This document shows, piece by piece, positions 18,542 through 41,845 of a stretch of DNA of 41,845 nucleotides (position 1 is the stretch's first letter; every line of letters starts with the position of its first letter). A model generated the notes under the pieces. The model did not search any database. It was not told the origin of the DNA and worked only from the letters and a program-made list of their open reading frames with translations. The position numbers were made by a program, and so were the translations under genes. The DNA comes from a virus, in the IMG/VR virus record IMGVR_UViG_3300004463_000610, positions 1 to 41,845 of that record. The stretch is one strand, 5' to 3'.

Positions 18542-19182
18542 CAGAAAATGATCCCTCCCGTCATCCGGTCCGCCACGCAGCGCTCGAAGGTATCCAGCCA
18601 CTGCTCGCCGAGCGCTCCGAGGGCCTTGCCGCCCGCGAAGGTCACACTGGCGTCGGCCTGCTTGACGCTCTGGGCGCCGCCGGTGACGATCCCCTGGAGC
18701 TGCGGGGCGCAGTGCGCCGCGGCGCGCTGCAGCACGGCCTGATAGACGTCATCGGGCACCGTGGCACTGCTCCCGAGGGTGCCGGTCACGACCACCGTCC
18801 CGCGCGAGCCCCACGGCAAGGGCTCCATGAGCCCCGCCACGAACTCCACGAAGCGATAGGGCGGACCATCGAGCGGCCTCTTCCGGTAGTCGTCCTCCAC
18901 GACGAGCGTGTCTCCGTCACGGGTGATGCTCGTGATCGTCGCCCAGTCAGTCTCCAGGTCGAGGAGATGCCCGGCATCGGTGGGCGTGTCGTAAATGCGC
19001 GTGGCGCTGGCCGCGCGATAGGTGCGCCCGGTGCGGTTCTCAAACTCCGCCTTCGCGGCGTCGACCGCGCCCTGAAAGTCCAGGGAAGCCGCGCGCCCGG
19101 TCGGCGCCGTCGGGGAATCGATCTGGTTGGCCGCGTAGAGGAAGGTTTTCAGGTCCCCGGCGGTCGGGTAGGCGTTCGCCAT
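18541..19182 (-). CDS. Head-tail connector / adaptor protein (213 aa)
   Basis: The N-terminus YPTAGDLKTFLYAAN, then helix VDAAKAEFENRTGRTYRAAS, then RIYDTPTDAGHLLDLETDWA and a strand region (ITSITRDGDTLVVEDDYRKR) followed by helices is the pattern of gp6/gp15-like connector proteins that bind under the portal. Its location before the head-closure gene fits. The C-terminus has a long helix (GEQWLDTFERCVADR). Confidence 0.75.
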   Translation of the reverse strand: MANAYPTAGDLKTFLYAANQIDSPTAPTGRAASLDFQGAVDAAKAEFENRTGRTYRAASATRIYDTPTDAGHLLDLETDWATITSITRDGDTLVVEDDYRKRPLDGPPYRFVEFVAGLMEPLPWGSRGTVVVTGTLGSSATVPDDVYQAVLQRAAAHCAPQLQGIVTGGAQSVKQADASVTFAGGKALGALGEQWLDTFERCVADRMTGGIIF

Positions 19183-36389: not shown

Positions 36390-37640
36390 GTGCCCACCGA
36401 GACGACCGAGATCCGGCTCGACGCCATCGAGCCCAGTGAACTGAACCCCCGCCGCGAGTTCCCCCGGGAGGCCCTGGAGGAGCTGGCGGCGTCGCTCGTC
36501 GAGTCCGGCCTGATCCAGCCCGTCGTGGTCCGGGCGATCGGGCCGGCCAGGTACAGCCTACTCGCCGGAGAGCGGAGGTGGCGCGCGGCGCACCTGGCCG
36601 GCTGGGAGACGATCCCGGCGCTGATCCGCGAGGCCGCGAGCGACGCCGAGGCGCTGGCCCTCATGCTCGCCGAGAACCTGCAGCGCGCGGACCTCACCGC
36701 CATCGAGCAGGCCCGCGCGTTTGCCCGCCTGCAGGAGCTCGGCGTCAGTCAAACGGAGATCGCGCGCCGCACCGGGAAAGCGCAGCCCACGATCGCCAAC
36801 ACCCTGCGCCTGCTGCAGCTCCCGGAGCCGGTGCAGGCCATGGTGCAGAGCGGCGAGCTGCGGCCGGCTTCCGCGCGGGCGCTCTTGCCGCTCGCGCCGT
36901 TCCCGGAGGTGGCGACCGCCATGGCGGAGCGGGTGATCGCCCAGGAGATCCCGGCGCGCATCCTCGAGCGCGATCCCCTCGCCACGCGCGAGTGGGAGCT
37001 GGCCACGGCGGGGGTGCTCGCTTCCCTCGACGATCGTACGCCCTGGGACTGGCGCACCGTCTGCCGGGAGCAGTGCCCGCATAGCGCTTACCGGGAGGCG
37101 TCCGGCGCCCGCGGTGGGGTCTGCCTCCGGCCCGAGCACTATGACGAGCTGCTCGCCGCCGCCGCGGAGCTGGCCCCGAGTCCCTCGGCCGCGGGCCCGC
37201 TCCCAGCGCCGCGCTCCACGCCGGATGAGGAGGAGCGCGAGCGGCGCCGGGTGCTCTGGGAGGACTGCCGGCGGCTGCTCGATGCGCGGCAGCCGCTCGC
37301 GGACGCGCGCATGGTGGCGCTCTTGTGCATGGACGTCATCGCCGGGACGAAGCACGAGACGCTCAAGTGGTTGGCGCAGGCGGAAAGGGTACCGGAGGAG
37401 CTGCTCGCGCAGCTCCTCGCCGCGGAGCCGACGCGCGCCGGCATCGCCGCCGCGCTCGCGGAGCAGCCGGCGCCCTGGGTCGCGAAGCTCGCTCTGCTCT
37501 GCCTGCTGCGGACGGAGGCGGAGGAGAGCGCGCACCTGCGCTATCCGGCGCGGCTGGCGGAATGGCTGACCGCTGGGGAGGACAGCGGCACCGTGGGGGA
37601 GCGGCTATCGGAACTGCTGGCGCCGGATGCCGCGGCATGA
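36390..37640 (+). CDS. ParB-like nuclease-domain protein 2 (416 aa)
   Basis: GTG start preceded by AGAAGGAG. Residues 8-100 form the ParB domain (EPSELNPRREF, YSLLAGERRWRAAHLAG, LMLAENLQRADLTAIEQA). The HTH is at about 115-140 (SQTEIARRTGKAQPTIANTL), the same GKAQPT-x-AN as ParB-like protein 1. A Cys cluster follows (CREQCPHSAYREASGARGGV, then C-x2-P). The C-terminal helical domain also resembles protein 1. No ParA is present. It could segregate the genome, silence or activate promoters, or act as a nuclease. Confidence 0.88.
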   Translation: MPTETTEIRLDAIEPSELNPRREFPREALEELAASLVESGLIQPVVVRAIGPARYSLLAGERRWRAAHLAGWETIPALIREAASDAEALALMLAENLQRADLTAIEQARAFARLQELGVSQTEIARRTGKAQPTIANTLRLLQLPEPVQAMVQSGELRPASARALLPLAPFPEVATAMAERVIAQEIPARILERDPLATREWELATAGVLASLDDRTPWDWRTVCREQCPHSAYREASGARGGVCLRPEHYDELLAAAAELAPSPSAAGPLPAPRSTPDEEERERRRVLWEDCRRLLDARQPLADARMVALLCMDVIAGTKHETLKWLAQAERVPEELLAQLLAAEPTRAGIAAALAEQPAPWVAKLALLCLLRTEAEESAHLRYPARLAEWLTAGEDSGTVGERLSELLAPDAAA

Positions 37641-38365: not shown

Positions 38366-38470
38366 CTAAATGAAGAGGCCGCTCCCCTGCCCTGGGGAAC
38401 GGCCTCGTTTTTTGATTGCCGGCGGCGCCCACCTCCGGCCAGCCCGCACGCCATGCGGGTGTCGATTGTC
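38366..38470 (-). ncRNA. Candidate small RNA between HTH gene and early operon
   Basis: A minus-strand promoter TTGCAG-N17-TATAAT (38505-38477) predicts a start near 38470. No convincing ORF follows. The transcript would fold a CCCGCA/TGCGGG hairpin, a GCCGG/CCGGC stem and the GAGGCCG hairpin at 38406-38375, which on this strand is followed by TTCATTT. A short structured RNA of about 100 bases is the simplest reading, but the promoter could also serve the HTH region antisense. Confidence 0.4.
38375..38413 (+). terminator. Rho-independent terminator of the HTH operon
   Basis: Stem GAGGCCG...CGGCCTC with an inner CCCC/GGGG pairing, followed by G and six T residues on the plus strand. It ends the regulator operon ten bases after the stop at 38365. 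Confidence 0.9.
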
Positions 38471-38571: not shown

Positions 38572-39042
38572 ATGATGGCTGAAACAGCGGTGCGGGTGGA
38601 CACGCTTCCGCCGACCCAGATCGACGCCACGCTCGCGTATCCCAGTATGCCGGAGGGCCAGGGAGCCACATACTGCCGGGTACGCGTTTACCAGTGGCCG
38701 GACCGCCGATGGCCGGTGATCGTGGTCACCGAAGATCCCCTGAATCCGGGGCAGAGTGTCACCAATGCCGCGGAGGTCGTGTTCTTCCTCGCCTGGGAAC
38801 GCGCCGGCTTCCCCTGGCCCGCGCACTTCGTGGAGCACTACCAGGGGAACCACTACGGCGCCGACGACCCCACGGACACCGAGCGGTTCGCCTGCCTGGC
38901 GTTTCAGAAGGGACTCGACGGGCGACCGCGCACCGCCGAGCGCAACCGCGGCCGGGGGTGCTGGCCCCACGAGTTCGCCGCGCCACGCTGGGAACATCTC
39001 GACGCCGGAGCGATGGCGGCCCTCCTGGGGACGGCGCTGTGA
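38572..39042 (+). CDS. Early protein upstream of initiator (156 aa)
   Basis: The sequence ATYCRVRVYQWPDRRWPVIV, TEDPLNPGQSVTNAAEVVFF, then WPAHFVEHYQGNHYGADDPT is a compact alpha/beta fold of a type found in phage and plasmid small proteins; no function is known to me. The gene opens the long coupled operon; its stop overlaps the GTG of the initiator gene. Confidence 0.7.
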   Translation: MMAETAVRVDTLPPTQIDATLAYPSMPEGQGATYCRVRVYQWPDRRWPVIVVTEDPLNPGQSVTNAAEVVFFLAWERAGFPWPAHFVEHYQGNHYGADDPTDTERFACLAFQKGLDGRPRTAERNRGRGCWPHEFAAPRWEHLDAGAMAALLGTAL

Positions 39043-40007
39043 GGTCCCCCAAGCGCGAGTTCCGCGGCGTCTGGTTCCCGCGCGAAATCTGGCTCGCCGC
39101 CGACCTCTCCTTCCTGGCAAAGGGGATCCTCGTCGAGATCGACAGCCTCTCCAGCGACGCCCGCGGCTGTTTTGCCTCGAACCGCTATCTGGCGCAATTC
39201 TTCAACGCCTCTCAAAGCCAGATCAGCCGCACGATCTCGGACCTGGAGAAGCGCGGGCTCATCACCATCGAGACGGCCTACGATCCGGCCGCGCTCGGCG
39301 GGGCGAAGCGCTATCTGCGGCGCACGGAGCTCGCCCTCCGGCAGCGCCCGCTGCCGGCCAAGGAGGAAGACGACGACGGGGAGGAAGGCGAGGACGAGCA
39401 AGCGGCACCCCTACGCAAAATGCGTAGGCCCCCTACGCATAATGCCGAGGGACCCTCCGCAAAATGCGTAGGCACCCTTAGCAAAATGCTAAGCATAGAT
39501 CATGAGTCTAGAGTCTTAGCTAGAATCAACAACAACAACAACAGCGCGGCGCGCGCCAGTTGCGACCTCCCGGTCGCTGTTGTTGTTGATTCCCCGCCTT
39601 CGGCTCCCGACTCCGACCCGACCCCGGACCCGGCCGCGCTGCAGCTCCTGACCGACGAGCAGCTCTTCAACGCCACCCTGGCCGCCCAGCTCGCCGCCGG
39701 GTGGACGGCCGAGGAAATGGCAGCGTGGATCGACCTCGGCCACCAGAAGGCCAACGACCTCGGCGACTACCTGCGCGCCGTGCTCTCCAACAAGGACAAC
39801 CCGCCGCCGGCGTCGCTGCGTCGCAAGCGCGAGCGGGAGGCGAAGGCGGCGATCCTGGCTGATCGGATCGCCGAGCGGGACCGGCGCCGCCAGGAGGAAG
39901 AAGCCGCGGATCCCATGCTGGCCGCGCAGGCGGCCAAGGTGGAGGCGGAGCTCGAGCGCCGGCGTCTGGCCCGGCAGCAGCGTGAGGGTGGGGGGCTGTC
40001 GGCATGA
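39039..40007 (+). CDS. Replication initiator-like HTH protein carrying iterons (322 aa)
   Basis: GTG 39039 overlaps the previous stop. Residues 1-110 follow the helix-turn-helix plan of phage replisome organisers: REFRGVWFPREIWLAADLSF, DSLSSDARGCFASNRYLAQF, then FNASQSQISRTISDLEKRGL. An acidic linker follows (KEEDDDGEEGEDEQ), then the segment whose DNA is the iteron array, then a C-terminal domain (LTDEQLFNATLAAQLAAGWT, WIDLGHQKANDLGDYLRAV). As in lambda O, the origin would lie within the initiator gene. The next start overlaps its stop. Confidence 0.82.
   Translation: MRSPKREFRGVWFPREIWLAADLSFLAKGILVEIDSLSSDARGCFASNRYLAQFFNASQSQISRTISDLEKRGLITIETAYDPAALGGAKRYLRRTELALRQRPLPAKEEDDDGEEGEDEQAAPLRKMRRPPTHNAEGPSAKCVGTLSKMLSIDHESRVLARINNNNNSAARASCDLPVAVVVDSPPSAPDSDPTPDPAALQLLTDEQLFNATLAAQLAAGWTAEEMAAWIDLGHQKANDLGDYLRAVLSNKDNPPPASLRRKREREAKAAILADRIAERDRRRQEEEAADPMLAAQAAKVEAELERRRLARQQREGGGLSA
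39410..39494 (+). repeat. Four iterons on a 22-bp period (origin)
   Basis: Copies at 39410, 39432, 39454 and 39476, each 19 bp, of the form CCTACGCA-N3-TGCGTAGG: copy 1 CCTACGCAAAATGCGTAGG (perfect palindrome), copy 2 CCTACGCATAATGCCGAGG, copy 3 CCTCCGCAAAATGCGTAGG, copy 4 CCTTAGCAAAATGCTAAGC. The spacing is exactly 22 bases, two helical turns. Because 22 is not a multiple of 3, the encoded protein is not repetitive; conservation is at DNA level. Inside the initiator gene, followed by a less GC-rich stretch. Confidence 0.88.
39523..39592 (+). repeat. Large inverted repeat with (AAC)n arms next to iterons
   Basis: The left arm, GAATCAACAACAACAACAAC and on to 39544, and the right arm CTGTTGTTGTTGATTC (39577-39592) are complementary, the left arm having two extra AAC units. 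The loop between holds a GCGCGGCGCGCGC run. It starts 29 bases after the last iteron with an A/T-richer stretch between. It may be a cruciform or unwinding element of the origin; it also encodes an Asn run followed by VVVDS. Confidence 0.72.
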
Positions 40008-40468
40008 CCGCCTCACTCTCCGCGGACCTCTACGCGCTGCGGATGCTCCTTGCCAACGGCCGCGAGGTGACCTGTGACGGCAGCCCGGTCCGCCTGGTGA
40101 TCGGCTGGAATCAGGCGGCGCACTGGATGGAGCGGCTGGAGGAGGCCATCGAGCAGCTCGACCAGGCCGCGGAGGAGGAGGACGCCTCGCCGCGCCCCGC
40201 GCTCGATGAGATGACGCGCGACGACTGGCTCGCGGAGCTGGAAGACGGGGCCGGCCGCCGCCGCTCCAATGCGGAACTGGCGGATCGGCTGGGCTGCAAC
40301 AAAACGACCGTGCGGCGCTATCTGGCGCTGCACGAGATCCCCACCGTGCTCGATGAGATCGCCTGCGAGCGGCTCATCCCCTGGACAGGAGCGAACAATG
40401 GCAACAACGTGGCAGGTGTATCTGGACCCGGGCCTCTGGCAGCGGCTGGCAACGGAGGCGATGGCTGA
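40004..40468 (+). CDS. HTH protein downstream of initiator (154 aa)
   Basis: ATGA overlap with the initiator. The N-terminal helical part (HWMERLEEAIEQLDQAAEEE) is acidic. An HTH lies at about 88-113 (SNAELADRLGCNKTTVRRYL, then ALHEIP), the family seen in ParB/KorB-type proteins. A partner in replication or a regulator of the coupled operon is plausible. Confidence 0.72.
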   Translation: MTASLSADLYALRMLLANGREVTCDGSPVRLVIGWNQAAHWMERLEEAIEQLDQAAEEEDASPRPALDEMTRDDWLAELEDGAGRRRSNAELADRLGCNKTTVRRYLALHEIPTVLDEIACERLIPWTGANNGNNVAGVSGPGPLAAAGNGGDG

Positions 40469-40694: not shown

Positions 40695-40936
40695 GCGAGC
40701 CCATCGAGGAGCGGGAACACCTCATGCACCGGCCGCTCGACTGGGAGGCGGCGAGCGATGCCGAGTGGCTCGATGCACTGTCACGCACGCCGCGCCCGGT
40801 CGATCCGACGTTCATGGCGCACGCCCAGAATCAGCGGCCGCACGTTCTGCGGCAGTCATTGGTGCTGTTCGAGCAAATGGGAGGGTTTCTCGGCCTGCCG
40901 GCGCGCCGGTGGCTGGGGAGGGGAAAACGCCAGTGA
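40691..40936 (+). CDS. Hypothetical early protein (81 aa)
   Basis: ATGA overlap at its start and GTGA overlap with the ParB-like gene at its end. It contains LDWEAASDAEWLDALSRTPR and SLVLFEQMGGFLGLPARRWL. No family is recognised; translational coupling ties its level to that of ParB-like protein 1. Confidence 0.68.
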   Translation: MSEPIEEREHLMHRPLDWEAASDAEWLDALSRTPRPVDPTFMAHAQNQRPHVLRQSLVLFEQMGGFLGLPARRWLGRGKRQ

Positions 40937-41845
40937 GAAAGATCCCGATCGACGCCGCCCGCTTCGGCGAGGCCGGCGACGTCCGCAAAGCCTACTCTCT
41001 GGGAGCGCTCCAGCTCAAGGAGCGCGCGCCCATCGTCAAGACGGTCGAGGTCGAGGGCAAGCGCTATACGGTGACCTCGCTCGGAGTGGGCAGCGCCGAG
41101 GCGTACGAGCTGCGCCACGTCTACAATCCGCCGAGCGGATCACTCGGAGAGTTCGACACCCGGCGCGTCACCTACCGCGGCGTGGAGTATCTCCTCGCCG
41201 GCCCGGTCCGCCTGGTGGCCGCCGCGCCGGTGGAAAACGCCGCGGTCCCGGAGACTAACGGCGGCGGGGAAAGTGTCGCGTTTCCGGTCGAGGTGGATGC
41301 CGCCGGCCAGTTCGACGCGCACGCCTATACGGCGCGCGTGAAAGAGGACATGGCAGCCGTCGCCGCCCAGGTCGCCGCCGCCCGCGCCCGCGTGGAAGCC
41401 GCCACGCCGGAGCAGCTCGCGCGGAAACGGGAGCCGCTGCCGAAGGTGGATCCCACGCCCTGCGTCGGGCATACCGCCTGGAATAAGGCGCCCTCCCGGA
41501 ATGCCCCAGAAACGCAGCAGGCGCCCGCTGTGGTGGCTCCGGCAGAAAGCGCGGCTTCTGCTATCCCGGACCCGTTCGCCGCGGTGCGCGCGTCCGGCGA
41601 GGCCCAGATGGCGCGCGCGCAATGCGTCCCGGTGGATCGGCGCCCGTTCGATGAGATTCCCCTCGGCTGGATCCAGCCTTCGCCCTGGAATCCGCGCCGG
41701 GAGATCACCGACGAGTCCCTGGAGGAGCTCGCCGCCTCGCTGCGCGAAGTGGGCGTTATCGAGCCGGTGATCGTCTATCGCGCCCTCGACGGCGCGCCGC
41801 TCCCGTATCGCCTGATCGCCGGCGAGCGGCGCCTGCGCGCGGCCG
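40933..41845 (+). CDS. ParB-like nuclease-domain protein 1, N-terminal part (continues at base 1)
   Basis: GTG 40933 overlaps the previous TGA. The first 235 residues are not ParB-like: a beta-rich start (APIVKTVEVEGKRYTVTSLG, then VYNPPSGSLGEFDTRRVTYR) and an Ala/Pro/Glu-rich linker. The ParB domain begins at about residue 242 (PLGWIQPSPWNPRREITDES, then REVGVIEPVIVYRAL) and reaches GERR at 297-300 where the window ends. The frame continues without a break at base 3 of the window. Total length is 662 residues, far longer than partition ParBs (about 280-350). Confidence 0.9.
   Translation, partial: MRKIPIDAARFGEAGDVRKAYSLGALQLKERAPIVKTVEVEGKRYTVTSLGVGSAEAYELRHVYNPPSGSLGEFDTRRVTYRGVEYLLAGPVRLVAAAPVENAAVPETNGGGESVAFPVEVDAAGQFDAHAYTARVKEDMAAVAAQVAAARARVEAATPEQLARKREPLPKVDPTPCVGHTAWNKAPSRNAPETQQAPAVVAPAESAASAIPDPFAAVRASGEAQMARAQCVPVDRRPFDEIPLGWIQPSPWNPRREITDESLEELAASLREVGVIEPVIVYRALDGAPLPYRLIAGERRLRAA
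41798..41845. repeat. Terminal direct repeat, right copy (circular overlap)
   Basis: Identical to bases 1-48. The repeat falls inside the ParB-like gene and is consistent with circular overlap, so only one copy exists on the circle of 41,797 bp. Confidence 0.93.

Follow-up and report, generated by a model that had tools for sequence, protein, structure and literature searches.

For an uncultured tailed phage of high GC content, the replication origin can be placed in the genome: it is very probably built into the gene of the phage's own initiator, and we propose a mechanism for its opening. The original prediction took in-gene iterons as the mark of the probable origin, and homologues, codon phase, a stability minimum, a blind DNA search, covariation and a working plasmid replicon all agree with it. 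The window, that is, the whole stretch of DNA analyzed, is an IMG/VR virus sequence of 41,845 bp that is listed as linear. Positions 1-48 repeat positions 41798-41845 exactly (a 48-bp terminal repeat), and the two ends of the record each hold one half of a parB reading frame, the halves matching consecutive parts of ParB profiles. Because of this end identity and the frame matching across the junction, the record is probably a complete circular tailed-phage genome of about 41.8 kb. The 5' part of this parB gene lies at 40933-41845 on the plus strand (ParB_N, 6.3e-14) and continues at the record start to about 1121-1124. Two different ParB-like genes thus flank the initiator region, one at 36390-37637 and the other from 40933 across the record ends; no ParA was recognized among the open reading frames scanned in the record. 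With such a pair, the phage could be a plasmid-like prophage (phage-plasmid).

The initiator gene (39039-40007, plus strand) encodes 322 amino acids, starts with GTG, and overlaps by its start the stop codon of the upstream gene. The N-terminus of the product is a winged-helix HTH_36 domain (pfam13730) scoring above the curated cutoff (33.6 bits vs 25), and the protein matches phrog_270, a replication initiation protein (9.8e-16). AlphaFold models are confident for the winged-helix DNA-binding domain (aa 1-95, encoded by 39039-39323), which is also conserved in a 44-member alignment; the domain is followed by a linker with aa 124-192 predicted to be disordered (pLDDT < 50 at 124-131, 133-185, and 187-192) and then by long helices. 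The part of the gene encoding the disordered stretch, 39408-39614, holds the iteron array, an AT-rich segment and a hairpin; judging from the models, the protein seems free to vary here while the DNA is constrained. Peptide patterns retrieved no close relatives of this particular initiator from IMG/VR. Upstream of the replication operon is a strong hairpin resembling a bidirectional terminator (38375-38407), and downstream of the initiator gene the same operon includes a gene for a small HTH/ParB-like protein (40004-40468, plus strand) with weak HTH matches only. Pfam and PHROG profile searches recognized no helicase or helicase loader gene adjoining the initiator gene in the window.

Four palindromic 19-mers with an exact 22-bp step were predicted inside this gene at 39410-39494, and both the repeats (steps of 22, 22, and 22) and their coordinates proved correct. 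The array begins about 370 bp into the gene, right after the part for the DNA-binding domain. With arm pairs counted by eye, iteron 1 (CCTACGCAAAATGCGTAGG, 39410-39428) has perfect 7-bp arms (7/7 pairs), iteron 2 (CCTACGCATAATGCCGAGG, 39432-39450) keeps 5/7, iteron 3 (CCTCCGCAAAATGCGTAGG, 39454-39472) 6/7, and iteron 4 (CCTTAGCAAAATGCTAAGC, 39476-39494) also 6/7. In iteron 4 both arms are altered together (CTTAGC/GCTAAG), and the palindrome is kept because these changes compensate each other. The palindromes are imperfect overall, and all four iterons keep the core GCA(A/T)AATGC. A scan of the record with the core pattern gave three exact matches, with no match on the opposite strand or in the rest of the record; the exact palindrome of these iterons was not found in the IMG/VR search for relatives. 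As a step of 22 is not divisible by 3, the same iteron DNA is read in all three codon phases in turn and yields unlike peptides, which agrees with the predicted lack of codon phase. The claim that the constraint is on DNA also held: the best chain score among synonymous-codon shuffles was 12 vs 17 observed (0/500), and when the sequence 3' of the HTH-coding part was shuffled by dinucleotides (n = 30), the maximum was 8.

Directly after iteron 4 lies the least stable DNA of the whole genome. The least stable 40-bp segment is 39490-39529, and the 60-bp segment 39483-39542, with 35% GC in a 68% GC genome, ranks first of 41797 positions; from its sequence it is a probable unwinding element. It ends in five CAA trinucleotides (39527-39541, plus strand), the only CAACAACAACAA run in the record. 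A long inverted repeat (39523-39592; 27-nt arms, 81% complementary) has this tract as one arm and can fold it into a hairpin on single strands (fold z about -5.8). The hairpin was rejected as a general part of the origin type: values of z < -2 occur in 17% of the relatives described below vs 10% of the background, and from this weak excess it is therefore taken as a feature specific to the window.

The proposed mechanism runs as follows: (i) the winged-helix N-termini would bind each of the four palindromic iterons as a dimer, with the iterons about two helical turns apart, so that the dimers would sit on one face of the DNA, (ii) the initiator-iteron complex would bend the DNA and open the adjoining AT-rich segment with its trinucleotide repeat (39483 to about 39545), and (iii) the exposed single strand would receive the replicative helicase, either via the initiator's helical C-terminal part or via a host or phage loader.

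By tblastn, the initiator has relatives encoded by Pseudomonas, Lysinibacillus, Bacteroides and Oceanospirillum phages and by phage-like Paraclostridium plasmids. Pattern scans derived from the HTH alignment, which select on protein sequence only, yielded 80 loci from IMG/VR (of at least 577 confirmed relatives) and 80 from genome contigs of bacteria and archaea, or 120 relatives after removal of redundancy; all 44 relatives scanned match pfam13730. A relative was classified as iteron-positive if its repeat chain beat all 30 dinucleotide shuffles. By this definition, iterons stand just after the HTH domain in 91/120 relatives, a count that overstates the number of independent events, as the relatives share ancestry. 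The predicted step is conserved as well, 219 of 269 steps being 22-23 bp, and in 89 of 90 genes the iterons span two or three codon phases. The strict repeat test failed in 29/120 relatives, some of them from detection limits; in a Leptospira locus (L013) and a Bacteroides locus (L008) the in-gene array is apparently absent. In 45/76 relatives the segment after the iterons ranks among the least stable 1% of its locus. In 15 relatives, many of them Verrucomicrobia bins, much of the array, together with the element that follows it, is non-coding because the stop codon of the gene precedes the array end. A separate observation is that in several loci, mostly from Verrucomicrobia bins (L094, L097, L099, L125, L136, and others), the initiator is little more than an HTH domain; in loci of this type the iterons and the TAATACA array described below are largely non-coding and lie 3' of the stop codon. 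Contigs labelled Thermoplasmatales and Methanobrevibacter (L152 and L158) carry an initiator of the bacterial-phage type, the former with a TAATACA array, and may be either mis-binned phage contigs or archaeal elements.

Two further comparisons link the iterons to the initiator. Over the relatives, iteron k-mer distance tracks the recognition helix (ten residues around the helix; partial r 0.49 once the remainder of the domain is accounted for, 0/999 permutations), and this covariation supports the N-terminal domain as the predicted iteron binder. When IMG/VR was scanned by DNA alone for pairs of window-type cores GCAAAATGC at 21-23 bp from each other, 74 stretches were returned, with 49 non-redundant open reading frames spanning the core pair. 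At least 18 of these are phage replication initiators, and some of the remaining matches are expected by chance; the initiator families PHROG 428, 270, and 678 were matched by 18, 17, and 17 of the 49, respectively, and the commonest families were nearly all replication families.

In most relatives the iterons are followed by a second element, an array of (A/G)(A/G)TAATACA on one strand, repeated mostly every 12 or 15 nt. Exact TAATACA occurs on the coding strand up to about 90 nt past the last iteron in 58 of the 90 relatives with clear iterons and on the opposite strand there in 0/90 (background windows, 0.4%); AATAATACA with one mismatch allowed is found in 67/90. Of 18 loci with non-coding copies, mostly from one clade, 17 have a spacing divisible by 3, and in GC-rich loci AAT-ACA encodes Asn-Thr pairs in 32/65 cases in linkers vs 10/96 elsewhere. 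The equal steps suggest repeated contacts along one strand. The motif is absent from the window, where CAA x5 is its positional counterpart. In Halomonas-type phages, GGGGTTCA repeats take the place of the second element. Among the Halomonas and Salinicola phages (L041, L049, L102, L106, L113, and L118), AGGGGTTCA at about 15-nt spacing replaces AGTAATACA; the two are alike only at the start and the final CA, the former being a G-rich alternative. Because the stretch with GGGGTTCA is not a local stability minimum, simple AT-richness is weakened as a full explanation for the second element, which seems to be specifically recognized besides melting easily. A tie to one type of helicase loader was also rejected, for TAATACA occurs beside lambda-P-like, DnaC/DnaA-like AAA+ and DnaB-like genes. 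In a limited search of the open-access literature we found no description of TAATACA in phage origins, and this conserved element seems undescribed so far.

Based on these observations, we propose that HTH_36 phage and plasmid initiators share a two-part origin code of iterons and a one-strand array, in which (i) the iterons diverge with the recognition helix, (ii) the array (A/G)(A/G)TAATACA is nearly invariant, with steps of 12 or 15 nt and a 3-nt register, (iii) the array would be a sequence-specific single-strand recognition element, an analogue of the DnaA-trio with opposite polarity, (iv) the partners vary between lambda-P-like, DnaC-like and DnaB-like neighbors, and (v) lineages replace the array, by GGGGTTCA in Halomonas phages and CAA in the window, and carry it inside or outside the coding region. 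Taken jointly, these points stand in our judgement at an even chance of being right. The layout itself provides a rule, based on sequence alone, by which origins can be located across a very large group of phages and plasmids: an HTH_36 domain is followed by 22-23-bp iterons and these by a one-strand trinucleotide array. The single-strand-biased element of the relatives is the part deserving follow-up. A conserved second element would make a DnaA-trio-like single-strand code at phage origins directly testable with short oligonucleotides.

Other readings of the array are less probable than an origin. Palindrome arrays can be parS-like, and given that the record has a pair of ParB-like genes, of which one begins 1.4 kb 3' of the array, the repeats might be ParB boxes, a centromere-like partition site inside the gene. 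We consider this very unlikely: the array tracks the HTH_36 initiator over the 120 relatives, several of which have no ParB among the listed neighbors, it covaries with the initiator's recognition helix, and the adjoining genome-wide stability minimum fits an origin. That the repeats are only an operator for autorepression of the initiator or copy-number control, with the origin elsewhere, is unlikely too. Iterons often double as copy-control sites, as established for iteron plasmids, and binding by the HTH domain is likely under either reading; however, the position about 370 bp inside the gene, the failure to find any promoter-like match around the array, and a strand-specific element on one side only argue against it.

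Asn-rich linkers are common in proteins and the linker of the window is predicted to be disordered, as would suit low-complexity protein repeats, or chance, without any function of the DNA. This reading has hardly any probability left, given repeats that are out of frame and unmatched by codon shuffles, an array that is largely non-coding in 15 relatives, and the retention of the rare codons AAT-ACA by GC-rich genomes. An origin inside the initiator gene is thus the preferred reading. The GC-skew check suggested for 39.4 kb did not point to it: the detrended cumulative extremes lie instead at 18956 and 25224, where the structural genes switch strands, and GC skew was set aside as a weak origin marker. 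Genes for capsid, protease, portal, and terminase occupy about 24.7-30.9 kb on the minus strand.

In-gene iteron origins are already known as a kind from lambda O, RepA_N and pPR9. The parallel to lambda O and plasmids drawn in the original prediction holds for the layout of in-gene iterons, here followed by AT-rich DNA; the closest kin are not lambda O but HTH_36 initiators (pPR9) and, by fold, RepA_N initiators. The window domain has among its best fold matches the structures 4pql, 4pt7, and 5kbj (query-normalized TM 0.59-0.66), which, going by their entry titles, are RepA_N proteins; the E-values are about 0.006-0.013, and many generic winged helices score similarly. The RepA_N Pfam domain (PF06970) was found neither in the window initiator nor in the relatives scanned. 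Like the window, the lambda O gene has four mid-gene iterons with a central AAAA (steps 20, 24, and 23) and then an AT-rich unwinding region, as described for ori-lambda (PMC7466680). The O-like PHROG profiles 678, 391, and 345 are common to window-type initiators and lambda O, whereas direct profile comparison of lambda O with the window-type domain is not significant (hhalign probability 0.5%), and the window has no lambda P neighbor. The rep gene of phage Tuc2009 is annotated 'contains origin of replication', but the repeats inside it, of AGGATAG types and 15 nt, follow another arrangement, and we rejected its Rep as a close homolog. Initiator binding to in-gene repeats has been reported (PMC8965321).

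The order of double-strand sites and a strand-specific trinucleotide array resembles the basal unwinding system (BUS), where a DnaA box is followed by the DnaA-trio array at a fixed distance (PMC8287927); the initiator differs. DnaA-trios are defined as 3'-[G/A]AT-5' on the strand leading away from the boxes (PMC8287927, PMC10797057). Identity with them was rejected, as neither the CAA nor the TAATACA tracts have this polarity and the CAA complement lacks an adenine in register.

Among plasmids, pSK41 RepA has four origin boxes centrally in rep that are bound by its N-terminal winged helix, and the linker encoded by the boxes can be deleted and is dispensable (PMC5703833). The TAATACA or AATAATAC array that the window lacks relative to the pPR9 type is a feature proposed here and is not family-defining in the literature. 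The Rep of the staphylococcal plasmid pPR9 scores weakly against profile A4 and differs from the window in its RepA_N-plasmid C-terminal domain and in the sequence and spacing of its repeats. As in the window, however, it combines a pfam13730 domain, repeats after the domain inside rep, and then an Asn-coding trinucleotide tract, here four AATAATAC units after the in-gene repeats (L251, 12020-12145). Its pfam13730-type N-terminus is related to a phage replication protein and was swapped in along with the part of the rep gene that bears the origin, and the pPR9 mini-replicon is functional and compatible with pSK41 (PMC5703833).
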